A stretch of DNA of 64,000 nucleotides, taken from contig NZ_CP100454.1 in assembly GCF_024228315.1 (NCBI RefSeq), forward strand, positions 1,674,001 to 1,738,000, in the 5' to 3' direction. A program made the position numbers and the translations under genes. A model generated the notes under the pieces. It was not told the DNA's origin, ran no database searches, and saw nothing but the letters and a program-made list of their open reading frames with translations. Below are positions 7,025-34,897 of the stretch, in pieces. The first letter of the stretch is position 1, and each line of letters opens with the position of its first letter. This stretch comes from Halomarina pelagica (GTDB taxonomy: Archaea; Halobacteriota; Halobacteria; Halobacteriales; Haloarculaceae).

Positions 7025-7178
7025 CCCTAAGTACGCCATCGGAGTAGTCACGCCAACTCGCTGGCCGGACGGGCCCCAGCGGGCACCTGCGACCGCATCG
7101 GCGCAGGCCGGAATGTGGCGCGCGCGGTTCGTCGAACCGCCCTCGCGCTGAACCACCCGACGCCCGTCGGAGCACACT
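7025..7178 (+). promoter_or_regulatory. Promoter and structured leader of rpl15e
   Basis: A TATA-like CCTAAGTA (about 7026-7033) lies some 150 nt before the L15e start, so the mRNA should carry a leader of about 120 nt. The leader can fold: CCTGCG...CGCAGG (7086-7107) with a 10-nt loop, and GCGGTTCG-T-CGAACCGC (7124-7140). A leader this long is unusual in a genome where most genes look leaderless; autogenous control by L15e is one explanation. Confidence 0.4.
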
Positions 7179-7769: not shown

Positions 7770-7888
7770 GCACCGCCGCCGTCGTCCGTTCTCGGCGTTC
7801 TTCAGCCGCTCGCCAGCGGCGGCCGCGACCGCGCGCCTCGCGCACGACCGGCGTAGCAGTGATACTCCACCGCGCACGAGGGGCACGC

Positions 7889-9276: not shown

Positions 9277-9299
9277 AGGGGGAGGTAGGCGGGCGCGCC

Positions 9300-9309
9300 G
9301 GTAAATCGC
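9300..9309 (-). promoter_or_regulatory. TATA-like box for mobA
   Basis: Minus-strand GCGATTTACC, centred about 28 nt before the mobA ATG at 9276; fits a leaderless promoter. Confidence 0.45.
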
Positions 9310-9366
9310 ACGGGTAGTCCCCCTACAAGAACGTTTCGATTCTGGAGTGGAAACGAGGGGGTCGCG

Positions 9367-12300: not shown

Positions 12301-12591
12301 GATCTCGTCGCCCTGCTCGGTGTCCCGGTCGTAGTAGCACAGCGCGGGGACGTACCCCTCGGTGTCGACCGCGTTCACGGCGTCGATGAGCGTCGACCCC
12401 GGCGGGAGCGCGACGGGCGTCCCGTCGACGGTGACGGTCGCCATCCCCTCGCGCTCGCCGGACGCGCTCGGGGGGACGGCCCTCACCTCGGGGTCGTTCG
12501 CCGTGCCGGTGACGAAGTCCTCGGTCAGCGGCGTCTCGTGCTGCGGGTTCTCGACGGACGGTACGCGCGGTAGTGGTGGGTTGGTACTCAC
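9367..12591 (-). CDS. fdhA: Molybdenum formate dehydrogenase, catalytic subunit with fused ferredoxin domain
   Basis: 1,074 residues from the GTG at 12591, which overlaps the stop of the upstream gene (GTGA). The N-terminal 230 residues resemble NuoG: a [2Fe-2S] region, a His-ligated [4Fe-4S] pattern (HNLRCTTC...C) and two ferredoxin clusters (CILCNRCVEAC, CVSCGHCATVC). A helical linker of about 90 residues follows, then the MGD domain with its own cluster (CGYCSVGC). Cys510 in ARLCHSS aligns with the selenocysteine of bacterial formate dehydrogenases (ARVUHGP), so this is the cysteine form. It oxidises formate to CO2. No Tat signal, so cytoplasmic. Formate rather than another substrate is judged from the motif around Cys510. 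Confidence 0.88.
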   Translation of the reverse strand: MSTNPPLPRVPSVENPQHETPLTEDFVTGTANDPEVRAVPPSASGEREGMATVTVDGTPVALPPGSTLIDAVNAVDTEGYVPALCYYDRDTEQGDEIGPRSECRTCMVETEEYGLVPSCSFPAEDGLSIATDAPDAEEARDVNLDLVLSNHNLRCTTCNANGQCELQDVSIENDVWHPRYGVLDDRDAYEPIDDTSSFIQIDRNKCILCNRCVEACNDVQVEGVLRIEGSGDDAHVGFQSEAETMADSTCVSCGHCATVCPTGSLTEKGYDGVATLPIPGFDQKNSVGKVIEHEPARTADDPPASPAADDASERKGVARFMAKARERARDAATDAGGAAWQRVEHLAEDVAANTMPEGVLFDVADAVSDVRLGGVDRTETTCGYCSVGCRFEVHAKDGEFLAVQPADPDHAPVNDFSTCVKGKFGYEFVDRETRLQTPLIREDGEFREATWDEALSRVAEEFARIVDDAGPDAMACFASSKGTNEEAYLVQKFARQVLGTKNVDNCARLCHSSTVAALQQTVGYGAMTNRINEDVGETDCYLITGSNTTESHPVLATRIKQNVRDGADLFVFDPRRVGIAEHATQYTRTRPGYDVAWINGMIRYVVEEDLHDAEFVEERTRNFDDLREKVEPFTPEEVERLTGVSPEELKNAAETIATADTCVFGWAMGMTQHSHGTQNVLALADLALVTGNLGKPGAGLSPFRGQNNVQGGGGDMGPAPHTLPGYQDLHDEDVLDTFERAWGTRPPSDVGLKVPETFTEALKGNVRGMYVVGENPALSEPDISHAADALDALDFLVVQDVFLTETAEFADVVLPAATFAEKDGTFTNTERRVQLVRRAMDAPGEAKPDWIILQELANRLGVEWGYESTSEVMDEINDLVPIYGGITHDRLEERGDGLQWPCPDEDHPGTPYLYEDEFNFEDGKARFVSADMGEPGDLPSEEYPLTLTSGRVLYHWHTGTLTRRVEGLMHHVGESFVEIHPETAERLGVADGEYVHVESKQGEIVVKAQVTDRPDVGVVFVPMHFAAGAVNRLTKETFDRVSGIPEYKVTSVRVTPAGPDPDPDSLGARAPGDD

Positions 12592-14108
12592 GAATCTCCC
12601 TCCTGGCAGGTTCCGCTGGGACAGCGACCGTTCGCGTGCGCGACGAACTCGGCCTCGAACGCCTCCATGGCCGTCGCGACGGGGCGGGCGGCGGTCTGCC
12701 CGAACGCGCAGGTGCTCGTCGTCCGCATCACCCGCGCGAGTTCGCGCAGCCCGTCGTCGGGGTAGTCGCCGTCGTAGACGTCGCGGAGGAGGTTCGTCAG
12801 CTGCTTCGACCCCTCGCGGCAGGGGACGCAGCGTCCGCAGTTCTCCTCCTGGGCGAAGCGAGCGCGCCGCCCGGCCGTGGCGACGACGCAGTTCGACTCG
12901 TCGAGCAACTCGACGACCCCCTCGGCACCGAGGTCGGCGGCGGCCAGCGCGGGGGCGCTGGGCGCGCAGTCGAGCGACCGGACGAGGCCGCCGAACTGCC
13001 CGCCGACGCACGCCATCTTGAACCGCCCGGGCATCGTCACGGCGTCGCGGACGGCGGCGAGCGACCCGCCGGTCGGGAGTTCGACGGTGGCCCGCGCCTC
13101 GACGTCGCCGGTCACGGTGAACAGGCGCGTGCCGGGGTCGGCGTCGTCGGGGTCGTACTCCCCGCCCGCCACGAGCGCGCGTCGCACGTGTGCGAACGTC
13201 CGCGGGGTGTGGACGACCGTCGGGCGACCGTGGAGACCGTGGACCTCCGGGCCGGGCGGGCGGAGTCGCGCCTCGAGCCTGTCCGCGCCCTCCATCGCCT
13301 CGAGCGCCATCGTCATCTCCCCCGCGATGAACCGGTCGGGACCGGCGACGACCTGCACCGCCTCGCCCGTCTCCTCGCGGAGCGCGCCCGCGGCCGCCTC
13401 GACGCGCTCGTGGAGGCGCTCGTCCGCCTCGTTGCAGTAGACGATCACGTCCGTCGCGTCGACGGCGCGGGCGACGGCGAGCGCGCCGTCGAGGACCGCG
13501 AGGGGCGCGCCCTCCAGCAGCACGCGGTCGGTCTCGTTGCGCCGGTCGGCCTCGTTCGCGTTCACGACGACGACCGGATCGCCGTCGGCGTCGCGGGCGG
13601 TGCGCCACGCGGGCGCGACGGGTTCGTCCGCGCGGCCGTCGCCGCGACCGCGTCCCAGCAGGCCGATCGCCCCGATCGCGTCGAGCGCCTCCCCGGGGTC
13701 GCGCTCGTCGAACGTCGGCGGGAGGTCCTCGACGCTCGCGGGGGCGACCCATCCGCAGGGACCGAGCACGCGCCGACGGCCGACCGAGAGCGGTCCGTCG
13801 TCGGGGACGGGCAGCGTCTCGCGGTCGGGTGCGTGCTCGACGACCGCGACGGCGTCGTCCGTGAGGAGGTCGCCCCCGTCGAGCGCCGCGGCGACCTCGC
13901 GGGCGCGGTCGGGCGTGCAGTTGGCGTGAAACGCGGTCCGGCCGTCGGCGGTCGCCGAGACCAGCGGGTCGAGTCCCCGGACGCCCGCGGATCCGACGGT
14001 GACGGCCGATCCTCCGATCGCCTCCCGCGCGGCGGCCGCGACGGCACCGTCCGCGTCGGCCACGCGGAGGACCGGAGCGCGACCGACGGCGGCAGTCGTC
14101 TCGTCCAT
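12588..14108 (-). CDS. NuoF-like electron-transfer subunit of formate dehydrogenase
   Basis: 506 residues, resembling the 51-kDa subunit of complex I and the diaphorase subunit of NAD-linked formate dehydrogenases. The C-terminal [4Fe-4S] binding pattern is intact (ENCGRCVPCREG, then TSTCAFG about 45 residues later). The glycine-rich NADH/FMN motif of NuoF (GRGGxGFPxGxKW) is not recognisable: the matching region reads GRGRGDGRADEPVAPAW, and NADE...KDR has become NANEADRRNETDR. The true electron acceptor is therefore uncertain. It is translationally coupled to the catalytic subunit downstream (4-nt overlap) and has its own promoter. Confidence 0.82.
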   Translation of the reverse strand: MDETTAAVGRAPVLRVADADGAVAAAAREAIGGSAVTVGSAGVRGLDPLVSATADGRTAFHANCTPDRAREVAAALDGGDLLTDDAVAVVEHAPDRETLPVPDDGPLSVGRRRVLGPCGWVAPASVEDLPPTFDERDPGEALDAIGAIGLLGRGRGDGRADEPVAPAWRTARDADGDPVVVVNANEADRRNETDRVLLEGAPLAVLDGALAVARAVDATDVIVYCNEADERLHERVEAAAGALREETGEAVQVVAGPDRFIAGEMTMALEAMEGADRLEARLRPPGPEVHGLHGRPTVVHTPRTFAHVRRALVAGGEYDPDDADPGTRLFTVTGDVEARATVELPTGGSLAAVRDAVTMPGRFKMACVGGQFGGLVRSLDCAPSAPALAAADLGAEGVVELLDESNCVVATAGRRARFAQEENCGRCVPCREGSKQLTNLLRDVYDGDYPDDGLRELARVMRTTSTCAFGQTAARPVATAMEAFEAEFVAHANGRCPSGTCQEGDS

Positions 14109-22285: not shown

Positions 22286-22915
22286 CTACTCGACCAGCAG
22301 CGCGTCGAGCAGTTTCGTCTGTGCCGCCGCGAGGTGCTCTGCGAGCGTCGCACGGTTCACCCCCAGGGCGTCGGCGACTTCGCCCGCGTTCGCCCCCTTC
22401 GGGTGCGAGAAGTACCCCATCTCGTGGGCGGTCTCCAGCACGTCAGCCTGTCGGTCGGTGAGCGCGTCGCGGTCGACGAGCACGAGTTCGCCCGAGTCGG
22501 AGGGACACTCAGAGCGCGTGAGACGACGGACGGCGACGCCGTCGAACGCGGCGCGCAGGTCGCCGATGATCTCCCGGAGCGATTCGAGATCCGGCGCGTA
22601 GAAACTCACGAGGAGGGCACCGTCTCGCGCGCGCACGTCGCGGACCGGACAGTCGTGGGACTCGATCCGTTCGCAGACGCACCCCTGACCGCGTTCGCGG
22701 GCGAGGCGGTAGACGCTCTCGGCGTCGTACCTGAACACCTCGTCCGCGTCGACGGTGGCGTCCTCCGAGGCGGTGAACTCCTCGGTGACCGAGGTTCCGG
22801 ACGCGGAGACGCTCCTGGAGACGGCCCCGACGGGCGACACCTCCCGCGAGACGGCCGCGACCTGACACGTCGGGGGACGCTCGATCCGCATCTCCGCGTA
22901 GATACCGGACCGCAT
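22286..22915 (-). CDS. narO: NarO-like regulator with Bat-type HTH
   Basis: 209 residues from ATG 22915. The C-terminal 60 residues are a bacterio-opsin-activator HTH (LTDRQADVLETAHEMGYFSHP...GVNRATLAEHLAAAQTKLLDALL). The N-terminal half has Cys17 and then Cys79-x-Cys81-x7-Cys89. This C-Xn-CXCX7C arrangement was reported for NarO of Haloferax volcanii, a regulator needed for denitrification, thought to sense oxygen or redox through a metal centre (from memory). It is divergent from the nitrate reductase operon, the expected target. Symbol given by motif and context; direct activity unproven. Confidence 0.82.
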   Translation of the reverse strand: MRSGIYAEMRIERPPTCQVAAVSREVSPVGAVSRSVSASGTSVTEEFTASEDATVDADEVFRYDAESVYRLARERGQGCVCERIESHDCPVRDVRARDGALLVSFYAPDLESLREIIGDLRAAFDGVAVRRLTRSECPSDSGELVLVDRDALTDRQADVLETAHEMGYFSHPKGANAGEVADALGVNRATLAEHLAAAQTKLLDALLVE

Positions 22916-22952
22916 CACGTCGACGCTCTCCCAGCGAGTACAAGCGTGTTGT

Positions 22953-22968
22953 CCCGAAGGTGTTCGGG
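22953..22968. promoter_or_regulatory. Inverted repeat between narO and the nar operon
   Basis: CCCGAA-GGTG-TTCGGG, perfect 6-bp arms, 38 nt from the narO start on one side. It is reminiscent of the CGAAC/GTTCG-type inverted repeats reported upstream of NarO-controlled genes in Haloferax, though the spacing here is shorter. A candidate operator for the divergent promoters. Confidence 0.45.
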
Positions 22969-23023
22969 TACGGGGGGTACTTGAACACCCCGCATCCTGT
23001 GGTCGGCGAGTTACCGCCCTCGA

Positions 23024-23035
23024 GTCGGTACCGAC
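23024..23035. promoter_or_regulatory. 12-bp perfect palindrome upstream of the nar operon
   Basis: GTCGGTACCGAC, perfectly symmetric, about 140 nt upstream of the first nar gene in the 260-nt divergent spacer. Function unknown; a second regulator site is possible. In this GC-rich genome a 12-bp palindrome can also arise by chance. Confidence 0.3.
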
Positions 23036-23175
23036 GGACGAGGAGTGTCCATGAAGCCAGACGGCCACCGCGGCACGGGCGGAGTTGCGTGGCGAACGGA
23101 CGGGCAGGGGTCCGATCGGAACGCCGGAGGGAGAGGACGAGGGAGCCGACGCGGGAGACCGGAGAGAGGCGACCG

Positions 23176-23760
23176 ATGAGGCGCGAGACCCTCGTCGTCG
23201 TGGCCCTCCTCCTCGCGGTGCTCGTCCCGATGTGGTACGTCGCGCTCCACGGCGAGCCGCCGAGCGAGGAGATCGAGATCGACCAGAGCGTCACCGAGAT
23301 GCGACCGCTCCAGGGGTTCGTCGACACGCCGAACAAGCTCTCGCCGAGCCAGGTCGGCGTCGTCGTCTGGGTCGCGCTGTTCGCCCTGGTGGGCGTCCTG
23401 ACGGCGGTCCACCGGTTCATGAACTCGGCCGTCAGGTCGGCTGAGCCGGCCCGGGCAGCGGCCGACGGGGGCCGTCCGGGCCGGCCGGGATCGCCGTGGT
23501 TCCAGACGGACGACAGGTGGGTCGCGACGTATCGCGCCGCGTCGGACGCGACCGAGGGCGTCCTGGCGATGGGCGGGCTGGCGATCCTCGCGATCGTGTT
23601 CGCCGCGCTGTTCACCGGCGAGTACCTCACGCTCGCCCGGACGCAGTACTTCGGCGTCTACGCCGCCGGCATGTTCCTGTCGCTGGCGATGCTCACCGTC
23701 GCCTACTACGCCTGGTTCCTCCCGCACGTCGAGGTCGCGGAACGGAGGGCGCACCGATGA
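23176..23760 (+). CDS. Nitrate-reductase-operon membrane protein, first gene
   Basis: 194 residues with about four membrane helices (5-24, 58-80, 128-150, 158-180) and an outward acidic loop SEEIEIDQSVTEMRPLQGF after helix 1. Not recognised as a known enzyme. Its place before the Rieske and cytochrome b genes, with an ATGA overlap to the Rieske gene, suggests a structural part of the quinol-oxidising membrane module. No heme motif or Cys pair is obvious. The start follows a weak ribosome-binding sequence (GAGAGGCGACC). Confidence 0.75.
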   Translation: MRRETLVVVALLLAVLVPMWYVALHGEPPSEEIEIDQSVTEMRPLQGFVDTPNKLSPSQVGVVVWVALFALVGVLTAVHRFMNSAVRSAEPARAAADGGRPGRPGSPWFQTDDRWVATYRAASDATEGVLAMGGLAILAIVFAALFTGEYLTLARTQYFGVYAAGMFLSLAMLTVAYYAWFLPHVEVAERRAHR

Positions 23761-24413
23761 CGGGGGGACGCGAGGAGTGCGAGTGCGAACGTGAGTGTGA
23801 GTTCGAGGAGCGTCGGGGGCACGGTCTCGAGACGCGCCCCAGCATCTACGCTGACCGTCGCGGGGCGATGGAGCGGCGGGACTTCGCCAAGGTGCTGGCG
23901 ACGGTCGGCGGGTTGACGGCGGTCGGCAGCCTGGCCGCCCCCCTCGCCGGCCTGTCCCGCGTCTTCGAACGGTCGTACACGGGACCGATCTACTCGGACG
24001 GCGTCTACCTCGTCGACGCCGAGGAGAAACGGGTCCCGGAGACCGCGCTCCGCCCCGGCGAGAAGACGACGGTGTTCCCGGAACCCCGACCGGGGATCGA
24101 GCAGGCCCCGACGCTGCTCGTTCGCTACCCGGAGAGCCGCTACGGCGGCGCGACGAAACTCGAGTTCACCGTGTCGGGCTACGCCGCCTACTCGAAGGTC
24201 TGTACGCACGCCGGCTGTATGGTCTCCAACGAGCAGGGCGAGATCCTGGTCTGCCCGTGTCACTTCGGGAAGTTCGACCCGACGGCGGGGGCGACGGTCG
24301 TCGGCGGACCGCCGCCGCGCGCCCTCCCGCAGCTTCCGATCACCCTGTCGAGCGACGGGTACCTCATGGCGACCGGGGACTTCGAGGGCCCGGTCGGGCC
24401 GGGGGGCGAGTGA
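23757..24413 (+). CDS. narB: Rieske [2Fe-2S] protein of the nitrate reductase complex
   Basis: 218 residues from ATG 23757 (overlapping the previous stop); ATG 23868 would give a shorter form starting [12 protein letters not shown] twin-arginine-like RRDFAKVLA precedes a hydrophobic anchor (about residues 45-62). The Rieske ligands are CTHAGC and CPCHFG. The N-terminal 35 residues are unusually Glu/Cys-rich ([12 protein letters not shown]), which is odd and may mean the later start is real. Carries electrons from quinol via cytochrome b toward NarGH. Symbol follows Haloferax usage and is tentative. Confidence 0.9.
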
Positions 24414-25813
24414 TGTCCCGGCTCGACGGGCTGGCAGACCGCGTCGGGTCGGCGTCCGAGCGCCTCTACCGGTGGACCGACGACCGGTTCGACCTCGACG
24501 CCGGCCGCGGGGCGCTCGGCAAGGCGTTCCCCGCCGAGGACTCGTTCCTGCTCGGGGAGATCGCCCTGTTCAGCTTCCTCGTGCTCGTGCTCACCGGGAC
24601 CTTCCTCGGTATGTTCTTCGAGCCGAGCACGAGCGACGTGACGTACGAGGGGAGCGTCGCCAAGTTCCAGGGCGAGACCCTCCCGGAGGCGTTCGTCAGC
24701 GTCCTCCACATCACCTACGACGTCCCCTACGGGATGTTCATCCGTCGGATGCACCACTGGGCGGCGCACCTCTTCGTCGCCGCCATCGGACTCCACATGC
24801 TCCGGGTGTTCTTCACCGGCGCGTACCGCAACCCCCGCGAGCCGAACTGGGTCGTCGGCTCCGGGCTGGCCGTGCTGGCGATGGGGGCGGCGTACACGGG
24901 CTACGCGCTCCCCTTCGACGAGTTCGCGAGCACCGCGACGGGCATCGGCTACAACGTGGCGAAGTCGATCCCGATCGTCGGCGACGTGGGCGCGAAGATC
25001 GTCTTCGGCGGCGAGTTCCCGTCCAGCGCGACGATCCCGCGGCTGTACTTCCTCCACGTGCTCGTCATCCCGGCGACGATCGGCGTGCTGCTCGCGGTCC
25101 ACATGGCGATCCTGTTGCGCCAGAAGCACACTGAGACACCGCGGGACGGCCCCGTGGGGACCCGGCGGACGACCGTCGAGGCGGACGACGACAGCGTAGT
25201 GGTCGGACTCCCGGCGTTCCCCAACCAGGCGGCCGTCAGCGCCGTGGTCTTCTTCCTGACGCTGGCGACGCTGTCGCTGCTCGCCGGCTTCCTCCCCGTC
25301 CACAACGTCGCCGAGTACGGCCCGAACGACCTGGCGAGCACCCCCGAACTCATCATGCCCGACTGGTTCTTCATGTGGCTGTACGGCTTCCTGAAGCTCC
25401 TGCCGACGTGGATGAGCGTCACGATCCCGGTGGTCGGGATCCACCTGAACACGGAGTTCATCGGCGGGGTCCTGCTGCCGGGGCTCGTGTTCCTGGCGCT
25501 GTTCGCCTGGCCGTTCATCGACTACTCGGAGGAGCCGACACACTTCACGGCCGACCCGCTGGCGCGACCCTGGCAGACCGCCGTCGGCGTCGCGGCGATC
25601 GTGTTCGTCGTGATCGCCTCCATCGCGGGGATGAACAACATCCTCGCGGACGTGCTTGGCACGTCGACGAGCGTCGTCAACCCGGCCCTCGTCGTCGCGC
25701 TCCTGCTCGGTCCCGCCCTGGCGGGGGGGATCACCTACCGGGTCCTGAGCGGGGACGACGGCGAGCGCGACGCGGGCGGGCGCGACCCGACGGAGGCGAC
25801 GGGCGATGGCTGA
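24413..25813 (+). CDS. Cytochrome b, fused b6/subunit-IV type
   Basis: 466 residues from ATG 24413, overlapping the Rieske stop by one base (TGATG). The N-terminal part has the heme-binding helices ([21 protein letters not shown] and [21 protein letters not shown]). The C-terminal part is like subunit IV of b6f/bc complexes with the [15 protein letters not shown] region. With the Rieske protein it forms a bc-type quinol-oxidising module, a haloarchaeal substitute for NarI. The C-terminal tail is acidic and soluble; its last 8 nt overlap the next gene. Confidence 0.92.
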
Positions 25814-25988
25814 GGTCGAACTCGCCGCGGAGACGTACCGGCGCATCGACCGCGCGAGCAAGGTCGTCGCCGTCGTCGCCGTCGCCGCCGGTCTCGAACT
25901 CGGCGGCGACACCCCGGCGGGACTCCTGCTCGGCGCGATCGGGGTGGCGCTGGCACTGAGTACGGTATTCATTCGGAACCAACCATGA
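25806..25988 (+). CDS. 60-residue membrane protein of the nar operon
   Basis: It starts inside the end of the cytochrome b gene and its stop overlaps the narG start. An N-terminal amphipathic part ([12 protein letters not shown]) leads to two short hydrophobic stretches (about 20-32 and 37-55). Overlap on both sides shows translation coupled with its neighbours. Possibly a small structural subunit of the cytochrome b/NarGH complex; no motif is known to me. Confidence 0.75.
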
Positions 25989-28846
25989 GCGAGAACGAAC
26001 GGCACGGCGAGCGGTCGGAGCGAGCGGAAACCGAGACGGGCGCGTCGCGTCGGGGCTTCCTGAAGGGCCTCGGCGTCGCCGCCGCGGTCGGTGCGGGGGC
26101 GGCGAGCGGCGACCTGTTGTCGATGGACGGCCTCGAGATCGTCGAGGACCCCATCGGTAACTACCCCTACCGGGACTGGGAGGACCTCTACCGCGAGCGG
26201 TGGGACTGGGACTCGGTCGCCCGGAGCACCCACAGCGTCAACTGCACCGGCAGTTGCTCGTGGAACGTCTACGTGAAGAACGGGCAGGTCTGGCGCGAGG
26301 AGCAGGCCGGCGACTACCCCCGCTTCGACGAGTCGCTGCCGGACCCGAACCCGCGGGGATGCCAGAAGGGGGCCTGCTACACGGACTACGTGAACGCCGA
26401 CCAGCGCGTCAAGCACCCGCTCAAGCGGGTCGGCGAGCGCGGCGAGGGGAAGTGGAAACGGATCTCCTGGGACGAGGCGCTGACCGAGATCGCGACCCAC
26501 GTCGTCGAGGAGGTGCGGGCGGGGCGGTACGACGCGATCAGCGGGTTCACGCCCATCCCGGCGATGAGTCCCGTCTCCTTCGCGGGCGGGTCGCGGCTGA
26601 TCAACCTCCTGGGCGGCGTGAGCCACTCCTTCTACGACTGGTACTCTGACCTCCCGCCGGGCCAGCCGCTGACGTGGGGCGTCCAGACCGACAACGCCGA
26701 GAGCGCCGACTGGTACAACGCGGACTACCTCATCGCGTGGGGGTCGAACGTCAACGTGACGCGCATCCCCGACGCGAAGTACTTCCTCGACGCCGGCTAC
26801 GACGGGACCAAGCGCGTCGGCGTGTTCACCGACTACTCGCAGACGGCGATCCACACCGACGAGTGGCTCAGCCCCGAACCGGGGACGGACACGGCGCTCG
26901 CCCTCGGGATGGCACGGACCATCGTCGAGGAGGGGCTGTACGACGAGGCGCACCTGAAGGAACAGACCGACATGCCGCTGCTGGTCCGCGAGGACACCGG
27001 CAAGTTCCTCCGCGCCGCCGACCTCCGCGCCGACGGGGACGACCGGGTGTTCGTGATGCGCGACGCCGAGGGAACCCTCCGGGACGCGCCGGGGTCGCTC
27101 GGGAACCGCGCCGGGAAGTACGACCCCGACGCGAGCATCGAACTCGGCTTCGACCCGCGACTGGACGTGGACGGGACCGTCGACGCCCTCGACGGCGAGG
27201 TTCGCGTCCGGTCGGTCTGGGCGAAGCTGAAGGCGGAACTCGCCAGGTACGACCCCGCGTTCGTCCGCGAGGAGACCGGCGTCGGACGGGAGACCCACCA
27301 GCGGATCGCCCGCGAGTTCGCCGACGCCGACCGGGCGAAGATCATCCACGGGAAGGGCGTCAACGACTGGTACCACAACGACCTCGGCAACCGGGCGATC
27401 CAGCTGCTGGTCACGCTGACCGGGAACCTCGGCCGGCAGGGGACGGGCCTCGACCACTACGTCGGCCAGGAGAAGATCTGGACGGTCCACGGCTGGAAGA
27501 CGCTCTCCTTCCCGACCGGCGACGTTCGCGGGGTCCCGACGACGCTGTGGACCTACTACCACGCCGGCATCCTCGAGAACACCGACGAGGAGACCGCGGC
27601 CCGCATCCGGGAGGCCATCGACAGGGAGTGGATGCCGCTGTACCCCGAGGAGCGCGAGGACGGGACGCGGCCCGATCCGACCACGCTGTTCGTCTGGCGC
27701 GGGAACTACTTCAACCAGTCCAAGGGGAACGTCGCCGTCGAGGAGACCCTCTGGCCCAAACTCGACCTCGTCGTCGACGTCAACTTCCGCATGGACTCGA
27801 CGGCGATGTACTCGGACATCGTCCTGCCGGCCGCGAGCCACTACGAGAAGCACGACCTCTCGATGACGGACATGCACACCTACGTACACCCGTTCACGCC
27901 GGCCGTGGAGCCGCTCGGGGAGTCGAAGACGGACTGGCAGATCTTCCGCGAACTCGCGGCGAAGATCCAGGCGGTCGCGCGGGAGCGCGACCTCGACCCG
28001 GTGCGCGACCGCCGGTTCGACCGGGAGATCGACCTCACGACCGTCCACGACGACTTCGTCCGCGACTGGGTGTCCGGAGCGGAGGGGGCGCTCGCCGACG
28101 ACAGGGCCGCCTGCGAGTTCGTCCTCGAGCACTCCGAGGAGACGAACCCCTCGGACAGCGACGCGCGAATCACGTTCGACGACATCGACGAGCGGCCCCG
28201 GCGGTTCGAGGCGGCGAGCGACCACTGGACCTCGCCGATCGAGGAGGGGGAGGCCTACGCCCCGTGGAAGCGCTTCGTCCGGGACAAGGAGCCGTGGCCG
28301 ACGTTCACCGGCCGACAGCAGTACTACATCGACCACGACTGGTTCCTCGAGATGGGCGAGGAACTGCCGACGCACAAGCGCCCCGTCGTCGAGCAGGACC
28401 GCGAGGCGTACCCGCTGCGGTACAACACGCCCCACGGTCGGTGGTCGATCCACTCGACCTGGCGGGACAACGAGACGCTGCTCCGACTCCAGCGCGGCGA
28501 GCCGGTCGTGTACCTCCACCCGGAGGACGCCGAGGCGCGGGGCATCGCGGACGGCGACGACGTCGTCGTCTACAACGACCTGGCCGAGGTCGAGGTGCAG
28601 GCGAAGCTCTACCCGAGCAGTCGGACGGGAACCGCCCGGATGTACTTCGCCTGGGAGACGTTCCAGTTCCCCGGGCGGAACAACTTCAACTCGCTCGTCC
28701 CGATGTACATGAAGCCGACGCAGCTGGTCAGGTACCCCGAGGACACCGGCGAGCACCTCCGGTTCGTCCCGAACTACTGGGGACCGACGGGCGTGAACAG
28801 CGACGTCCGCGTCGACGTCCGGAAGAAGGGGGGTGACGGGTCGTGA
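25985..28846 (+). CDS. narG: Respiratory nitrate reductase catalytic subunit NarG (Tat-exported)
   Basis: 953 residues. It reduces nitrate to nitrite with a bis-MGD molybdenum centre. The Tat signal has SRRGFLKG (residues 21-28), so the enzyme faces outward (pNar-type). The His-ligated [4Fe-4S] cluster is in STHSVNCTGSC...CQKGAC. The molybdenum ligand is Asp222 in FYDWYSDLPP, the residue that marks nitrate reductases rather than Cys- or Ser-ligated relatives. It is shorter than bacterial cytoplasmic NarG (about 1,240) as expected for the archaeal type. Start overlaps the small membrane gene; the end overlaps narH (GTGA). Confidence 0.97.
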   Translation: MSENERHGERSERAETETGASRRGFLKGLGVAAAVGAGAASGDLLSMDGLEIVEDPIGNYPYRDWEDLYRERWDWDSVARSTHSVNCTGSCSWNVYVKNGQVWREEQAGDYPRFDESLPDPNPRGCQKGACYTDYVNADQRVKHPLKRVGERGEGKWKRISWDEALTEIATHVVEEVRAGRYDAISGFTPIPAMSPVSFAGGSRLINLLGGVSHSFYDWYSDLPPGQPLTWGVQTDNAESADWYNADYLIAWGSNVNVTRIPDAKYFLDAGYDGTKRVGVFTDYSQTAIHTDEWLSPEPGTDTALALGMARTIVEEGLYDEAHLKEQTDMPLLVREDTGKFLRAADLRADGDDRVFVMRDAEGTLRDAPGSLGNRAGKYDPDASIELGFDPRLDVDGTVDALDGEVRVRSVWAKLKAELARYDPAFVREETGVGRETHQRIAREFADADRAKIIHGKGVNDWYHNDLGNRAIQLLVTLTGNLGRQGTGLDHYVGQEKIWTVHGWKTLSFPTGDVRGVPTTLWTYYHAGILENTDEETAARIREAIDREWMPLYPEEREDGTRPDPTTLFVWRGNYFNQSKGNVAVEETLWPKLDLVVDVNFRMDSTAMYSDIVLPAASHYEKHDLSMTDMHTYVHPFTPAVEPLGESKTDWQIFRELAAKIQAVARERDLDPVRDRRFDREIDLTTVHDDFVRDWVSGAEGALADDRAACEFVLEHSEETNPSDSDARITFDDIDERPRRFEAASDHWTSPIEEGEAYAPWKRFVRDKEPWPTFTGRQQYYIDHDWFLEMGEELPTHKRPVVEQDREAYPLRYNTPHGRWSIHSTWRDNETLLRLQRGEPVVYLHPEDAEARGIADGDDVVVYNDLAEVEVQAKLYPSSRTGTARMYFAWETFQFPGRNNFNSLVPMYMKPTQLVRYPEDTGEHLRFVPNYWGPTGVNSDVRVDVRKKGGDGS

Positions 28847-29895
28847 GCGGCGGGACGTCGGAGGTCGACCTCGCGGAGGGGGTCTCCCACCAGGTCGCCA
28901 TGGTGATGGACCTGAACAAGTGCGTCGGCTGTCAGACGTGTACGGTCGCGTGCAAGACCCTCTGGACCGAGGGCGGCGGCCGCGAGTACATGTACTGGAA
29001 CAACGTGGAGACGAAGCCGGGCGAGGGGTACCCTCGAAACTGGGGGGAGAGCGGCGGCGGCTGGAAGTCCGCCGAGCACGGGGAGCGGTCGCCCGGGGAG
29101 ATCCCCGCGCAAGGAGACTACGGCCGCGCCTGGGAGTTCGACCACGAGGCGATCATGTACGACGGGAGCGACGAACCGCTCCGTCCGCAGGGGGACCCGA
29201 CGTGGGGACCGAACTGGGACGAGGACCGGGGGGCCGGCGAGCACCCCAACTCCTATTACTTCTACCTCCCTCGCATCTGTAACCACTGTACGCACCCCTC
29301 GTGCGTGGAGGCGTGTCCGCGGAAGGCCATCTATAAGCGCGAGGAGGACGGGATCGTGCTCATCGACCAGGAGCGGTGTCGGGGGTACCGCTACTGCGTC
29401 GAGGGCTGCCCCTACAAGAAGGTGTACTACAACGCGAGGACGAAGACCTCGGAGAAGTGCGTCTTCTGTTACCCGCGGATCGAGGGGTCGGGACCGGACG
29501 GCGAGACGTTCGCCCCGGCCTGCGCCGAGGAGTGCCCCCCTCAGCTCCGGCTCGTCGGCTTTCTCGACGACGAGCGGGGACCGATCTACAAACTCGTCGA
29601 GGAGTACGAGGTCGCCCTCCCGCTCCACCCGGAGTACCGGACGGAGCCGAACGTCTACTACATTCCGCCGTTCGCACCGCCCCAGCACTCCGACGCCGGC
29701 GAGACGGTCGACGTGGACCGCATCCCGCGTGAGTACCTGGAGGAACTCTTCGGCGAGCGCGTCCACCGCGCGCTGGACACGATCCAGCGGGAGCGCGAGC
29801 GCGTGAACCTCGGCGAGTCGAGCGAACTCATGGACCTGCTGACGGACACGAATCCCGCCCGGAAGTACCGCCTGGAGGTGTTCGACGATGCGTGA
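28843..29895 (+). CDS. narH: Nitrate reductase beta subunit NarH
   Basis: 350 residues from GTG 28843. It carries four Fe-S clusters: CVGCQTCTVAC (about 26-36), CNHCTHPSCVEAC, CRGYRYCVEGC and CVFCYPR...CAEEC. In bacterial NarH the third group has Trp (CRGWRMC), making a [3Fe-4S] cluster; here it is Tyr. It has no Tat signal and is presumably carried out with NarG. It passes electrons from the heme-b or Rieske/cytochrome b partners to the NarG cluster. Overlaps both neighbours. Confidence 0.96.
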   Translation: MSGGTSEVDLAEGVSHQVAMVMDLNKCVGCQTCTVACKTLWTEGGGREYMYWNNVETKPGEGYPRNWGESGGGWKSAEHGERSPGEIPAQGDYGRAWEFDHEAIMYDGSDEPLRPQGDPTWGPNWDEDRGAGEHPNSYYFYLPRICNHCTHPSCVEACPRKAIYKREEDGIVLIDQERCRGYRYCVEGCPYKKVYYNARTKTSEKCVFCYPRIEGSGPDGETFAPACAEECPPQLRLVGFLDDERGPIYKLVEEYEVALPLHPEYRTEPNVYYIPPFAPPQHSDAGETVDVDRIPREYLEELFGERVHRALDTIQRERERVNLGESSELMDLLTDTNPARKYRLEVFDDA

Positions 29896-30700
29896 GGAGC
29901 GGTCGGCCGCGCTCGCCGCGGCGGTGTTGAGCTGTCTGGTGGTCGTCACGGCGGCCGTCGCGCCCGCGCTGACGTCGGCCCGGCCGGCGAACCAGATCCC
30001 CGTCGAGGAGGTGTCGGGCGACGCGAACCCCCAGCGGCCGACCGCCGAGGTCTGGACCGCGGTGCCGTCGGTCGACGTTCCGCTCACGAGCGCGCCGAGC
30101 GGGCTCCCGAACGCGAACGACACGTCGGTCGAGACGCTGGACGTGCAGGCCGCACGGGATCAGCGACGCCTGTACGTCCGCGTCTCGTGGAAGGACGGGA
30201 CGGCGGATCGGAACGTGACCGGGCCGCGGGAGTTCGCCGACGCGGTCGCGGTGCAGCTACCGGTGAACACCAGCGCCCGGCCGCCGATCGCGATGGGGAG
30301 CACGCGCACCCCCGTCAACGTCTGGTACTGGAGCGCTGACGGCGGCACCGAGGAACTGCTCGCCGGCGGACCCGGATCGACGACCGCGTTCGGGAACGCG
30401 ACGGTGCGGACGACGACGACGTACGACGACGGCCGGTGGACGGTCGTCCTCTCCCGGGAGCGACGCGTCCCCGGACCGAACCGGACCTCGATCGGGGGGG
30501 AGGACGTCGACGTCGCGTTCGCGGCGTGGAACGGCTCCAACATGGAGCGGTCCGGCCGGAAGTCGGTGAGCGAGTGGTACCACTTCCCCCTCGGGCCGGG
30601 ACCGCAGGGGCCGCCCTACGAGACCATCCTGTGGACGGTCGCGGGGCTCGCGATCGTCGGCGTCGCGCTCGTGACGATCACCGCGGTCAGGAGGACGTGA
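29888..30700 (+). CDS. narC: EBDH-gamma-like heme-b subunit of nitrate reductase
   Basis: 270 residues. It has an N-terminal signal/anchor (LAAAVLSCLVVVTAAVAPAL), an immunoglobulin-like beta domain of the ethylbenzene dehydrogenase gamma type (DVQAARDQRRLYVRVSWKDGTADRN...FADAVAVQLP) and a C-terminal membrane helix (TILWTVAGLAIVGVALVTI). Family members bind one heme b with Met and Lys: a Met is present in PIAMGST and a Lys in SGRKSVSEWY. This would link the external NarGH to the membrane. Symbol tentative. Overlaps narH by 8 nt. Confidence 0.82.
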   Translation: MREERSAALAAAVLSCLVVVTAAVAPALTSARPANQIPVEEVSGDANPQRPTAEVWTAVPSVDVPLTSAPSGLPNANDTSVETLDVQAARDQRRLYVRVSWKDGTADRNVTGPREFADAVAVQLPVNTSARPPIAMGSTRTPVNVWYWSADGGTEELLAGGPGSTTAFGNATVRTTTTYDDGRWTVVLSRERRVPGPNRTSIGGEDVDVAFAAWNGSNMERSGRKSVSEWYHFPLGPGPQGPPYETILWTVAGLAIVGVALVTITAVRRT

Positions 30701-30701
30701 C

Positions 30702-31430
30702 ATGGACGACACGAACGGAAACGCGCTGGAGGACGGCACGGCCCCGGTCGACGACGAACCGCTCGACGTCGCCTCGCTCGACGCGGCGGCCGCGGCGCGC
30801 GGGGGCGTCTACGCGCTGTTCGCGACGCTGTTCGAGGAACCGGACGAGACGGTGTACGCCCGGCTCGACGCGGGCGAGGTGCACGCGCAGTGCGCCGACC
30901 TCCTCGCGGCCACGGGGCTCGACGTCGACCCGCCGGACCTCACGACCGGCGACGATCACGAGACGCTCTGTGCGCGGTACAACGACCTGTTCACGGTCGG
31001 CTACGCGGAGTACGAGGATCGGAGCGACGGGTCGCTCGCCTCGCGGGGGCCGCCCGTCTCGCTCTACGAGAGCCGGTATCGCTCGGACGTGTCGTGGAGC
31101 GACGTGAACCTCGACCTCGCGCGAGCGTACGACTACTTCGGCCTCGGGGTCGATCGGACGGCGCGGGACAACCACGACTACCTGCCGTACCTCCTCGAGT
31201 TCGCCGGCTACCTGGCCCGACGCGCCGCGCTGCTCGACGAGGGGGCCGCCCGGGCGCGACTCGACTTCCTCGACAGGCACCTCCGCGTCGTCGCCCCGCG
31301 CGTCGCCGAGCGAGTGGCCGGGGAACCGGGCACGGACCTCTACGGCGAACTCGCCGACGCGCTCGACCGGTTCACCGCCGCCGACCAGGTCGACTTGGCC
31401 GCGCGGTACGAGGAGGTGGGGCGCTCGTGA
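30702..31430 (+). CDS. narJ: TorD/NarJ-family chaperone
   Basis: 242 residues, all-helical. Residues 35-220 match the DMSO-reductase chaperone family (RGGVYALFATLFEEPDETVYARL..., YNDLFTVGY, VSLYESRY, DYFGLGVD, DNHDYLPYLLEFAGYLA). It should bind the Tat signal of apo-NarG and guard cofactor insertion before export. It follows the heme-b subunit by 1 nt and overlaps the next gene (GTGA). Cytoplasmic. Confidence 0.9.
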   Translation: MDDTNGNALEDGTAPVDDEPLDVASLDAAAAARGGVYALFATLFEEPDETVYARLDAGEVHAQCADLLAATGLDVDPPDLTTGDDHETLCARYNDLFTVGYAEYEDRSDGSLASRGPPVSLYESRYRSDVSWSDVNLDLARAYDYFGLGVDRTARDNHDYLPYLLEFAGYLARRAALLDEGAARARLDFLDRHLRVVAPRVAERVAGEPGTDLYGELADALDRFTAADQVDLAARYEEVGRS

Positions 31431-32299
31431 GCCGACACTCGGCGTCGACCGGTGACGAACACCGCCCGACGGGGGCGGGGAGTCTCGCCGGAGCGCTGTC
31501 CGTCTCGCCGCGGGGCGCGGTCGGAGCGCTCGCCCTGCTCGCGCCCGCCGCGACGACGCTCCTTCGCGTCGCGCGAAACGCGCCGACGACCCTGCCGCCG
31601 GTCGTCGCCGACGCCTACCCGTCCGTCGCGCTGGCCGCCGCGCTGGGTCCCGCGGCGGCGGCGGTGCTGCTCGGCGCGCTGACCGACGACGTGCGCGAGC
31701 GCGTCGGACTCGCGTTCGTCGGCGTCTTCGGTCCCGCGGGAGCGTTCGTCCCGGCGGCGTGGCTCCCCGCCGCGGGGGCGGTCGTCGGCGGGACGGCCCT
31801 CGCCGTCTACGCGCGTCGGCGACGACTCGGGGCGCGTCGGTTCGCGGTCGCCGCGCTCGTCGTCGTCGCCATGGCGGCGTCGCTCGCCGGTGCGGCGGGC
31901 GTCGCGTCGGTGACGCTCAGGCCCCTGGGGTCGACGCTCGCGCTCCTCGGCGTCGGACTCGCCCCCGCGTTCGTCCGGTCGGCGTGGCCCGACTGGACGG
32001 TCGGGGCGCTCGCGGCCCTGCTCGCGCTCAAAGCGGGCCTGAGCGCGCCCTTCGCGACCGGGGCGGTCGTGCTCGTCGGCGGCGCGGTCGTCGGGACGCC
32101 GCTCCCCGTCGTCGCGCTGGCGGTCGGCGGGGCCGTCGCCACGGCGGCCGCCGCGCTCCGTCGCCGCGCGCCCGAGGCGGCGGTCGGCGTCGCGCTGCTG
32201 GCGGTCGCGGGCGTCCCCGCGACGCTCCCGCGAGCGCTCGCGGTCTGCGTCGGCGTCGACCTGCTCGTCGCGTCGTCCACGGGCGGTGATCGCCCGTGA
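31427..32299 (+). CDS. Polytopic membrane protein of the nar operon
   Basis: 290 residues from GTG 31427. Very Ala/Val/Gly-rich with about eight or nine predicted helices and Arg-rich loops (ARRRRLGARR, RRRAPE). No family recognised, no binding motif. Its overlapping position between the NarJ-type and HEAT-repeat genes ties it to nitrate respiration, but whether as nitrite/nitrate transporter or assembly factor cannot be told. Confidence 0.72.
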   Translation: MSRHSASTGDEHRPTGAGSLAGALSVSPRGAVGALALLAPAATTLLRVARNAPTTLPPVVADAYPSVALAAALGPAAAAVLLGALTDDVRERVGLAFVGVFGPAGAFVPAAWLPAAGAVVGGTALAVYARRRRLGARRFAVAALVVVAMAASLAGAAGVASVTLRPLGSTLALLGVGLAPAFVRSAWPDWTVGALAALLALKAGLSAPFATGAVVLVGGAVVGTPLPVVALAVGGAVATAAAALRRRAPEAAVGVALLAVAGVPATLPRALAVCVGVDLLVASSTGGDRP

Positions 32300-33129
32300 G
32301 AGACGAGGAGGAGGCCACCGACGGACCGCCGGACCCGCGTCTCCACCCGGAGCGGAGCCCGGGGTTCGGGGAGCACCCCGGGGGGCTCGCGGCCATCGAG
32401 GTTGATCGCGACGTCACCATCGGCGAGGCGTCGCCGGAGGAACTCTCGGTGAGCGACACGACGCCCGTCGCCGACCGGGACGCGGAGGCGCTGTGCCGGA
32501 CGCTCGAGGGTGGGTCGGTCGTCGAGCGTCGGCGCGCCGCGCTCGCCCTCGCGGACGCCGGCGCGGACGACGGTCGCGTCGGGCGGGCGCTGGCGGGCGC
32601 GGCGAGCGACGACGACCCCGAGGTTCGGCAGTTCGCCGTCGAGTCGCTCGGGAAACGCGGGGGGGAGGTCGCCGCGGACGCGGCCCGCCGGCTGGTCGAC
32701 GACCCCGACCCGTGGGTGCGCGCGGAGGCGGTCGTGACGCTCGATCGCCTGGATCGGGCGGCCCACCGCGACCGCATCGAGGACGCCCTCGACGACGACC
32801 ACCACGCCGCCCGGCGGAACGCGACGATCTCGCTGTTCAAACTGCGCGGCGAGGGGGCGCTCGACGTCCTCCTCGAACGGGCGGACGACCCGAGCGAGCG
32901 CGTCCGGGAGTGGGCCGTCCACCTCCTGGGCGGCGTCGACGACGACCGCGCCAGGGTGACCCTCGACGCGGCGGCCGAATCGGACGAGAGCGACCTCGTG
33001 CGCGCGACCGCGGCGCGCGCACTCGAGGTCGACCCCGGGAGCTTCCGGCGGCAGTTCAGCGGTGCGCTGGACGAGGAGGATACGGTCCTCCCCGGCGAGG
33101 ACGCGCTCAACCGACGACCCGATCTCTGA
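32296..33129 (+). CDS. HEAT-repeat protein of the nar operon
   Basis: 277 residues from GTG 32296. The N-terminal 60 residues are acidic and Pro-rich (DPRLHPERSPGFGEHPGG). Residues 65-255 form about five HEAT-like helical repeats (AALALADAGADDG, DPEVRQFAVESLGKRGGE, DPWVRAEAVVTLDRLDR, SERVREWAVHLLGGVDD, DLVRATAARALEVDP). HEAT scaffolds bind other proteins; PBS-lyase-like HEAT proteins are often seen near redox complexes. A likely assembly or regulatory partner. Overlaps the membrane gene by 4 nt. Confidence 0.85.
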   Translation: MRDEEEATDGPPDPRLHPERSPGFGEHPGGLAAIEVDRDVTIGEASPEELSVSDTTPVADRDAEALCRTLEGGSVVERRRAALALADAGADDGRVGRALAGAASDDDPEVRQFAVESLGKRGGEVAADAARRLVDDPDPWVRAEAVVTLDRLDRAAHRDRIEDALDDDHHAARRNATISLFKLRGEGALDVLLERADDPSERVREWAVHLLGGVDDDRARVTLDAAAESDESDLVRATAARALEVDPGSFRRQFSGALDEEDTVLPGEDALNRRPDL

Positions 33130-33131
33130 TC

Positions 33132-34391
33132 ATGGACGAACACACCACGGATGCGATCCTGCGCGAACGAGTCGAAGCGGCGCTGCGAGACGTGAGCGAT
33201 CCCGAACTCGACCGGGCGGCGTTCGACGCCGGCCTCGTCGAGCGGATCCGCGTCGACGACGGCGAGGTCGTCGTCGAGGCCGACCCGTCCGGGTTCGACC
33301 CGTCGGTCGAGCGGGCGACGCGGGCGATGCTCCGCGCCGTCCGCGACGTCCCCGGCGTGCGGAGCGCCCACGTCGAACCGACGGCGGCGGAGGCTGGTGG
33401 TCGGACTCCGGGGGTCGACGCGTTCGACACGGTCGTCGCCGTCGCCAGCGCGAAGGGGGGCGTGGGCAAGTCGACCGTCGCCACGGCGCTCGCCTGCGCG
33501 CTCGCGGGCGAGGCGGACGTCGGCCTGTTCGACGCGGACGTCCACGGCCCGAACGTCCCCTCGCTACTCGACGTCGAGGGACCGATCCGGGCGGACGAGG
33601 AGGGTCATCCCCTCCCGGTCGAGGCGTCCGGCCCCGACGCGACGCTCGAAGCCATGAGCGTCGGCTTCATGGCGTCCGGCGCGCCGCTGGCGTGGCGCGG
33701 CGCGATGGTCCACGACGCGGTGACCGAACTCTTCGCCGAGACCGCCTGGCTGAATCGGGACACGCTCGTCGTCGACCTGCCGCCCGGGACGGGAGACGTC
33801 GTACTGACGACGCTACAGGAGATCGAGGTCGACGGCGTGGTCGTCGTGACGACCCCGTTTCCGACGAGCGTCGAGGACACGAACCGGAGCGTCGACCTCT
33901 TCCGGGAGAACGGCGTGCCCGTCCTCGGTGCCGTGGTCAACATGGGTGGGTTCACCTGTCCGTCCTGCGGCGACACGCACTCTCTGTTCCCGGGGGGTTC
34001 GCCCGAGGCGGCGCTGGACGCGCCGGTCGTCGCCGAACTCCCGTTCTCGCCGGCGCTGCAGCGGACGCCGACGCCGGGGGACGCCGCGGACGCCGTCGAT
34101 CGACTCGCCGCCGAGGTCTCGCGTCGGGTGACCGAGGCGTGGGAACTGGACGCGCCCGACGACGCCGTCGACCTCCGCGGAGCGACCGCCGACGAGCGCC
34201 GAGCGCGGGTCCGCGAACGGTTCACGGCGCTCGATTCCGGGGACCCGTTCCACCTCGTGAGCGACCGCGACCCGAGTCCAGTCAGGGGGTTCCTCGCGGA
34301 ACTGGCCGGCGTCGAACCCGAGGCGATCGAGCCGTTCCGGGTCGAGCGCCGGACCCCGGAGGGCTGGGTCCTCCGCGCGAGGCACCCGTGA
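33132..34391 (+). CDS. Mrp/ApbC P-loop ATPase with N-terminal MIP18 and C-terminal DUF2249-like domains
   Basis: 419 residues from ATG 33132. Residues 8-85 are a MIP18/DUF59 domain (VEAALRDVSDPELDRAAFDAGLV). Residues 95-340 are the Mrp ATPase: deviant Walker A ASAKGGVGKST, DADVHGPNVPSLL, VDLPPGTGD, and the CPSCGDTHSLF motif with the CxxC used for Fe-S binding in this family. After residue 345 comes a segment (VDLRGATADERRARVRERFTALDSGDPFHLVSDRDPSPVRGFL...) resembling DUF2249. Mrp proteins load Fe-S clusters; NarG/NarH alone need five. Fusion with DUF2249 inside a nitrate operon is unusual. Confidence 0.85.
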   Translation: MDEHTTDAILRERVEAALRDVSDPELDRAAFDAGLVERIRVDDGEVVVEADPSGFDPSVERATRAMLRAVRDVPGVRSAHVEPTAAEAGGRTPGVDAFDTVVAVASAKGGVGKSTVATALACALAGEADVGLFDADVHGPNVPSLLDVEGPIRADEEGHPLPVEASGPDATLEAMSVGFMASGAPLAWRGAMVHDAVTELFAETAWLNRDTLVVDLPPGTGDVVLTTLQEIEVDGVVVVTTPFPTSVEDTNRSVDLFRENGVPVLGAVVNMGGFTCPSCGDTHSLFPGGSPEAALDAPVVAELPFSPALQRTPTPGDAADAVDRLAAEVSRRVTEAWELDAPDDAVDLRGATADERRARVRERFTALDSGDPFHLVSDRDPSPVRGFLAELAGVEPEAIEPFRVERRTPEGWVLRARHP

Positions 34392-34897
34392 GCGGCGACG
34401 CGTGCGAGGAGCGCGGGGAGCGCGGGGAGCCGATCGAGTCCCCGCGGCTCGACGTGATCGGCAGGGAGCGACTGTGCCTCTCGGTCGCGGCGCTGCGATC
34501 GCTACCGAGCGTCGAGCGGCGGTGCACCGTCGCCTGCGCGTCCGGACGGCGGACGACGGCGCGCTGGCGGGGCGTCCCCGTCCCGGAACTGCTCGACCGC
34601 GCGTCGATGCCGGAGGCGACGACCCACCTCGTGATCGGGAGCGACGACGGGTACCGCGCCTGCGTCGCCGTTCGCGACGCGCTCGACGGGATCGTGGCGT
34701 ACGCCCGCGACGGGACGCAGATCTGGGACGAGCGCCCCTACGCGACGCGGTTCGTCGCGCCGGGGATCGAGGGTGCGCGCACGGTCAGGGGCCCGACGCG
34801 AATCGAGGGGGTCGCGCTCGCGCCGGGGGCCGACCCCGACGCGTACGAGGCGCGACCGGCACCGCCCGGGGATCACTCGTCACCACGGGTCGACTGA
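34388..34897 (+). CDS. Molybdopterin-oxidoreductase-like domain protein
   Basis: 169 residues from GTG 34388, overlapping the Mrp stop. It resembles the central fold of the sulfite-oxidase/YedY family (PRLDVIGRERLCLSVAALRSLP, CTVACASGRRTTARWRGVPVPELLDRA, THLVIGSDDGYRACVAVRDALDGIVAYARDG). CACASG-like region may hold the Mo-ligand Cys, but the protein is about half the usual length and has no Tat signal, so it may bind rather than use cofactor. Last gene of the nar operon. Confidence 0.72.
   Translation: MSGDACEERGERGEPIESPRLDVIGRERLCLSVAALRSLPSVERRCTVACASGRRTTARWRGVPVPELLDRASMPEATTHLVIGSDDGYRACVAVRDALDGIVAYARDGTQIWDERPYATRFVAPGIEGARTVRGPTRIEGVALAPGADPDAYEARPAPPGDHSSPRVD

Follow-up and report, generated by a model that had tools for sequence, protein, structure and literature searches.

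A haloarchaeal nitrate reductase operon of Halomarina pelagica with a bc-type donor module and conserved accessory genes downstream of narJ

Introduction

How does an archaeon load and export a nitrate reductase that faces the outside of the cell? Such an enzyme must receive its iron-sulfur (Fe-S) clusters and its bis-molybdopterin guanine dinucleotide cofactor in the cytoplasm and then be exported folded, and no description of the archaeal way of doing so was found in the literature consulted. The question is raised by a twelve-gene nar locus of Halomarina pelagica (host genome of 4.6 Mb), contained in a stretch of 64,000 nt of contig NZ_CP100454.1 (positions 1,674,001-1,738,000), hereafter the window. 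This locus is probably a haloarchaeal pNar operon in which a bc-type module feeds an outward-facing NarGH, and which also carries maturation and membrane accessory genes. The operon is of a known kind; its under-described part is the conserved accessory module, not the absence of NarI. The data suggest that the eight genes published so far are not the whole functional unit, and two proteins inseparable from narG, together with a carrier common to a second molybdoenzyme, are concrete single-gene targets in the tractable genus Haloferax.

Organization of the nar operon

Re-reading of the coordinates shows that all twelve plus-strand frames between window positions 23176 and 34897 are open. The genes, with the evidence for each, are the following (ORF, open reading frame; EBDH, ethylbenzene dehydrogenase; Tat, twin-arginine translocation):

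23176-23760, plus strand: narA (ORF1), small membrane subunit, distantly DUF7318-like (PF24002, E-value 5.5e-4, under the cut-off)
23757-24413, plus strand: narB, Rieske [2Fe-2S] protein (PF00355, 2.8e-8)
24413-25813, plus strand: narC, fused cytochrome b, alternative start GTG 24410 (NF050120, 373 bits; Cytochrom_B_N_2, Cytochrom_B_C)
25806-25988, plus strand: gene 4 (ORF4), small membrane protein of 60 amino acids (position, conservation in relatives)
25985-28846, plus strand: narG, Tat-exported type II molybdoenzyme, pNarG (TIGR03479, 1313.7 bits, cut-off 984.75)
28843-29895, plus strand: narH, Fe-S subunit (TIGR03478, 566.7 bits, cut-off 480.7)
29888-30700, plus strand: gene 7 (ORF7), EBDH-gamma/NxrC-like haem b subunit (TIGR03477, 245.5 bits, cut-off 169.85)
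30702-31430, plus strand: narJ (gene 8), type II enzyme chaperone (PF02613, 1.5e-11; TIGR03482, 150.9 bits)
31427-32299, plus strand: gene 9, all-helical polytopic membrane protein of no known family (co-occurrence with narG, AlphaFold2 model)
32296-33129, plus strand: gene 10, HEAT-repeat protein with a conserved N-terminal extension (PF13646, 3e-31)
33132-34391, plus strand: gene 11, fusion of DUF59, Mrp/ApbC P-loop NTPase and DUF2249, candidate Fe-S carrier (PF01883, PF10609, PF10006)
34388-34897, plus strand: gene 12, stand-alone sulfite-oxidase-type molybdenum (Mo) cofactor domain, optional (PF00174, 5.3e-15)

The eleven junctions are, in order, overlaps of 4, 4, 8, 4, 4 and 8 nt, a gap of 1 nt, overlaps of 4 and 4 nt, a gap of 2 nt and an overlap of 4 nt; the overlap between narB and narC is reduced from 4 to 1 nt if narC begins at ATG 24413. 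With nine overlaps (1-8 nt) and two gaps (1 and 2 nt), the nearly gapless run of twelve genes reported in a preliminary description of the window is borne out, and Pfam and NCBIfam scans back the labels given there to ten of the genes. In these scans, gene 10 matches HEAT_2, gene 11 matches FeS_assembly_P, NUBPL/Mrp and DUF2249, and gene 12 matches Oxidored_molyb; genes 4 and 9 show no match to a Pfam or NCBIfam family.

The gene order was found again in 49 haloarchaeal loci, with identities of about 59-87% for genes 1-3 and 5-6. In relatives, the junction between narJ and gene 9 overlaps in 37 of 40 cases and that between gene 9 and the HEAT gene in 38 of 40. Since the gene order recurs and these overlaps are conserved, the arrangement is not due to chance. 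Gaps are frequent in relatives at two other junctions: the one between narH and gene 7 has a median of 35 nt and reaches 404 nt in intact loci, and the one between the HEAT and Mrp genes has a median of 2 nt and reaches 201 nt; gaplessness is therefore stronger in the window than across the family.

The nar operon described in Haloferax mediterranei and Haloarcula marismortui shows the same genes 1-8 in the same order: Rieske protein and fused cytochrome b, Tat-exported NarG, EBDH-gamma-like subunit and NarJ, without NarI. The H. mediterranei operon matches genes 1-8 one for one (PMC2483277). That description ends at eight ORFs, whereas the conserved set seen here also includes genes 9-11, with gene 12 as an optional extra.

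Genes 9 and 10 as obligate partners of narG

The distribution of the accessory genes was read from 292 genomes of Halobacteria, 61 with narG and 231 without it. Gene 9, traced by a single-sequence search, is present in 61 of 61 narG-positive genomes and in none of the 231 others; the HEAT gene is present in the same 61 and in one narG-negative genome (G244, a partial HEAT match). The contingency tables against narG are thus 61/0/0/231 for gene 9 and 61/0/1/230 for HEAT. When genera are counted, both narG and gene 9 occur in 24 of 77. Nearly all copies are located no more than 12 kb from narG, and the exceptions in narG-positive genomes are located near contig ends or on another contig. Forty-three of the 49 haloarchaeal loci fetched continue past narJ: the HEAT gene is present in all 43 and gene 9 is detected by BLAST in 40, while the other three contain an ORF of similar size and hydrophobicity in the same slot. 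As obligate partners of narG, genes 9 and 10 are core parts missing from the published eight-gene description; neither they nor the second type II operon presented below were found described in the open-access literature.

In aligned relatives, identity to the window copy is 27-48% for gene 9 and 43-70% for HEAT. The only invariant residues of gene 9 are M1, N51, F101, L153 and P208, none of them His or Cys, and the HEAT protein shows 45 invariant columns in 42 sequences. The ratio of nonsynonymous to synonymous substitution rates (dN/dS) in seven close pairs ranges from 0.12 to 0.32 for gene 9, from 0.04 to 0.12 for HEAT and from 0.04 to 0.14 for narG; judged by these ratios, both accessory genes are under purifying selection.

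The AlphaFold2 model of gene 9 has a predicted local distance difference test of 91.3 and a predicted template modelling score of 0.87, and no confident PDB match was found for its fold (best Foldseek E-value of 0.66; VIA Z of 7.5 over 62 residues). A fold assignment was dropped, the structure matches being below a meaningful level, which does not in itself establish a new fold. The HEAT model matches chiefly designed alphaRep and generic repeat proteins. We rejected the idea that HEAT accompanies nar in archaea generally: no HEAT matches beyond weak, generic ones were found outside the Halobacteria, and the published Methanoperedens nar cluster also lists no HEAT gene. Among the bacterial loci fetched for type II enzymes or NarG (L054, L056-L072), none shows a nearby match to HEAT or Mrp.

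Gene 11 and a second type II molybdoenzyme operon

Gene 11 is found in 55 of the 61 narG-positive genomes and in 13 genomes without narG. It shows the DUF59 domain, P-loop and CxxC motif of Mrp/ApbC carriers, and the Walker lysines K108 and K113 and the cysteines C276 and C279 of the CxxC motif are invariant in 42 sequences. It differs from Mrp/ApbC carriers and from DUF2249 proteins such as DrpA in its C-terminal DUF2249 fusion and its location in molybdoenzyme operons. The H. mediterranei Mrp-DUF2249 counterpart sits in the nar operon and is upregulated in denitrification, with a log2 fold change of 3.60 (PMC11218638).

Sixteen Mrp-DUF2249 loci, comprising the narG-less occurrences and second copies, were examined. 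In twelve of them there is a paralogous operon for a type II molybdoenzyme, formed by alpha, beta and gamma subunit genes plus HEAT and Mrp-DUF2249, with identities to the nar set of about 27% for alpha, about 39% for beta, about 30% for gamma, 33-45% for HEAT and 44-51% for Mrp-DUF2249. A thirteenth locus (G058) shows alpha, beta, gamma and HEAT beside Mrp in a different order. Of the remaining three, L098 has alpha and beta beside Mrp, L109 has a nar remnant and L100 has no enzyme nearby. None of the twelve loci contains narA, narB, narC or gene 9. HEAT and Mrp recur with alpha, beta and gamma, and without narABC or gene 9; they therefore follow the molybdoenzyme rather than nitrate or the bc module, and a maturation role is favoured accordingly. 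By the same distribution, gene 9 is specific to the nitrate enzyme.

These loci provide further observations. The second type II operon is located in L096, L097, L099, L101, L102, L104-L108, L110, L111 and L118, and a TorD-like chaperone of this operon was seen in L105 and L082. The solved structure nearest to its alpha subunit (tested in L105) is the anammox nitrite oxidoreductase NxrA (7b04_B, 427 bits). An acidic ORF of about 200 amino acids (L105, 11299-11910, and equivalents) is conserved between HEAT and Mrp and shows no Pfam or NCBIfam match. In L109, from a genome without narG, a narA/Rieske segment stands beside the C-terminal part of an Mrp-DUF2249 gene (about 11500-13100), apparently the remnant of a nar operon.

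The main alternative is that genes 9 and 10 encode subunits of the mature complex, either structural or for electron coupling, with gene 9 as an additional membrane subunit next to NarC and HEAT as its cytoplasmic cap. Perfect co-occurrence with narG, the tight overlaps of narJ, gene 9 and HEAT, and the compact, helical, high-confidence model of gene 9 would all agree with this explanation, but gene 9 has neither an invariant His nor an invariant Cys that could bind a redox cofactor, HEAT recurs in the second operon without narA, narB, narC and gene 9, and a place after the chaperone gene suits maturation genes; we consider it unlikely.

More doubtful still is a sensory or regulatory function of genes 10-11, with DUF2249 as a nitrate or nitric oxide sensor similar to Thermus DrpA. 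In its favour, DUF2249 proteins are found clustered with genes of denitrification, and a role as nitrate sensor has been proposed for DrpA (PMC11218638). However, only E6P09_00795 among the four H. mediterranei DUF2249 proteins keeps the DrpA histidines, and a regulatory role is less likely because the nar-operon fusion does not conserve them (PMC11218638). In gene 11, DUF2249 forms one protein with a complete Fe-S carrier whose Walker lysines and CxxC are invariant, and a separate DmsR/NarO-type regulator adjoins the operon.

Electron transfer module and enzyme class

No NarI gene is found in the operon, as the preliminary description had stated: the only PF02665 match of the genome (23.6 bits) is a protein of 719 amino acids, HdrD/GlpC-like, encoded 1.36 Mb away. 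The assignment of the membrane side to a Rieske protein, a fused cytochrome b and an EBDH-gamma-like protein agrees with the Pfam and NCBIfam domain matches. The Rieske ligands of NarB (C149/H151/C154 and C166/C168/H169) are invariant in 49 sequences and the haem ligands of NarC (H114/H128 and H215/H230) in 48. In the host's housekeeping bc-type cluster, the gene ahead of the Rieske-position gene is a true DUF7318, of which NarA seems to be a distant counterpart. Domain scans of the twelve operon genes found no cytochrome c1/f partner, and the haem b protein of gene 7 may occupy the electron-acceptor position in its place. ORF7 has an N-terminal signal and a C-terminal transmembrane helix and matches 7b04_C and 2ivf_C. 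Its residues M136 and K225, aligned between EbdC and NxrC, are conserved in 48 of 49 sequences; we take this Met and Lys to be the haem ligands. Menaquinol is the established electron donor in haloarchaea.

That a Rieske/cytochrome b module of the Q-cycle type feeds an outward-facing NarGH without NarI was proposed in 2007 (PMC2483277) and repeated later (PMC7754194), and antimycin A inhibition is cited in PMC4683180. An active site on the outside and quinol-linked nitrate reductase activity have been published for H. mediterranei only (PMC2483277; PMC7754194). The corresponding proposal in the preliminary description is supported by gene content and ligands, and this electron-transfer reading is right as far as testable; it is already published and is not new. 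The orientation, the bc coupling, the co-enrichment of NarC with NarGH and the induction of the Mrp gene are all taken from the literature. The preliminary description also placed these proteins in one co-translated complex, a reasonable proposal that is backed in part: NarC co-enriches with NarGH in membrane fractionation of H. mediterranei, whereas NarB and Orf7 do not (PMC7754194).

NarG is a type II dimethyl sulfoxide (DMSO) reductase alpha subunit, above the curated TIGR03479 cut-off. It shows a twin-arginine signal, SRRGFLK, at residues 21-27 (motif present in 47 of 49 sequences), the H-x3-C-x3-C FS0 motif (H83, C87, C91 and C126) and the Mo-ligand Asp D222. The cluster cysteines of NarH are invariant in 50 sequences, and 47-49 of 49 haloarchaeal sequences retain the redox ligands of NarG and the gamma subunit. 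Bacterial NarGHJI shares the NarG and NarH homologues and the NarJ chaperone, whereas the window operon lacks NarI, has an outward NarG with a Tat signal and does not reach the cut-off of the bacterial narG equivalog TIGR01580 (583.7 vs 1084 bits). PcrAB, EbdABC and NxrABC share the alpha/beta architecture, and EbdC and NxrC the Met/Lys haem b gamma subunit; the window operon differs from them in its bc-type donor module and in the Glu at the position of PcrA Trp461. In three loci (L055, 6158-9013; G138:C1:314729-317668; G265:C3:131206-134211), narG appears split over several frames or pieces, by frameshifts or assembly errors.

The solved structure nearest to NarG is perchlorate reductase PcrA (772 bits, vs about 497 for E. 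coli NarG), which could suggest (per)chlorate or another oxyanion as the real substrate instead of nitrate. This is very improbable: the PcrA gate residue Trp461 is replaced by Glu496 in the window, with Glu in 48 of 49 aligned sequences, as in the NarG of H. mediterranei, which respires nitrate (PMC6650914), and the host genome also contains nosZ (82% identity).

Gene 12 and molybdenum cofactor genes

Gene 12 encodes a protein of 169 amino acids in which only PF00174 was found, with no dimerisation domain and no full catalytic domain. Its Cys50, invariant in six sequences, aligns with the Mo-ligand Cys of sulfite oxidase. Homologues are found in 87 of the 292 genomes and are adjacent to nar in seven of the 61 narG-positive genomes; gene 12 is optional and not a core part. 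In six relatives (L008, L011, L023, L025, L032 and L036), mobA is located at most 150 bp downstream of gene 11 or 12, and elsewhere it adjoins gene 12 homologues (L086, L090 and L092). The mobA product, a guanylyltransferase, synthesizes the dinucleotide cofactor on which NarG relies. This proximity hints at a cofactor role for gene 12.

Elsewhere in the window, a minus-strand formate-dehydrogenase-like cluster extends from 7859 to 14108, with the molybdopterin subunit from 9367 to about 12588 and a NuoF-like gene at 12588-14108. It contains a MobA-like gene (8620-9276), the only match in the genome to the MobA probe used, and is accompanied by a plus-strand YqeC gene.

Proposed roles of the accessory genes

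In the proposed mechanism, electrons from menaquinol would exit at the Rieske/cytochrome b module (genes 1-4) and would reach NarH and NarG, at the outer side of the membrane, by way of the haem b subunit (gene 7), leaving NarI unneeded. NarJ, HEAT and Mrp-DUF59-DUF2249 would work in the cytoplasm ahead of Tat export: NarJ would hold apo-NarG(H), gene 11 would supply [4Fe-4S] clusters, and gene 10 would be the scaffold uniting Mrp and NarJ with the apo-enzyme. Gene 9 may be a nitrate-enzyme-specific membrane factor, most likely acting at the hand-over of NarGH to the bc module (NarC) or to the membrane, and gene 12 an optional helper in Mo-cofactor storage or transfer. No Tat or Sec signal is evident in the sequences of genes 8 and 10-12, so the most economical reading is that their products load and guard NarGH before Tat export. 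The sequence evidence behind this scheme consists of gene content and order, motifs, co-occurrence and the reappearance of HEAT together with Mrp in the second type II operon; every function given to genes 9-12 is our inference from it.

The preliminary description had suggested that genes 9-12 form a dedicated assembly line. The idea is plausible, but the four genes do not behave alike: genes 9 and 10 are obligate, gene 11 is usually present and also occurs in the second operon, and gene 12 is optional. The chances are about even that HEAT scaffold and Mrp-DUF59-DUF2249 carrier, with optional Mo-domain protein and MobA, form a haloarchaeal biogenesis module for exported type II molybdoenzymes, common to nitrate reductase and the second, NXR-like enzyme, to which the nitrate operon adds the obligate gene 9.

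Several points weigh against the proposed scheme. Six narG-positive genomes lack gene 11, which therefore cannot be essential everywhere, and a canonical ApbC/Mrp homologue is present elsewhere in the host genome. HEAT proteins bind many partners, and "scaffold" is a generic guess. Gene 12 is mostly located away from nar. NarB and Orf7 were lost in purification (PMC7754194), contrary to a tight single complex. The genomes compared are related rather than independent, so the Fisher values for co-occurrence are descriptive and overstate independence.

Three congeners of the window organism (G156, G159 and G238) lack narG, gene 9, HEAT and the Mrp fusion; within this genus the whole operon is therefore gained or lost together. 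Such patchiness means that the operon may move as a block, but that genes 9-12 are chance neighbours carried between genomes with it is hardly credible, since passengers are lost quickly, as gene 12 shows, whereas all 61 genomes, from 24 genera, have retained genes 9 and 10, whose dN/dS values are far below 1.

Upstream region

Two features are located upstream of narA:

22286-22915, minus strand: divergent DmsR/NarO-type regulator, DmsR_N plus HTH_10, start set at ATG 22915 (PF24277, 1.1e-47; PF04967, 1.4e-16)
22955-22966, no strand assigned: palindrome CGAAGGTGTTCG, lying 221 nt ahead of narA; candidate regulator site

The regulator domains lie on residues 52-186 (PF24277) and 203-254 (PF04967) of the 22286-23068 ORF, and a homologue of this regulator adjoins narA in many relatives. 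Within the window alone, the motif CGAA-N4-TTCG is no commoner than expected by chance; counting the window locus, it is found upstream of narA in 19 of 48 loci, vs 3.9% of random 400-bp pieces. Apart from the nar region, window positions 7086-7159 match the Rfam ribosomal protein leader eL15-Euryarchaeota with 34.1 bits (gathering score, 33.7).

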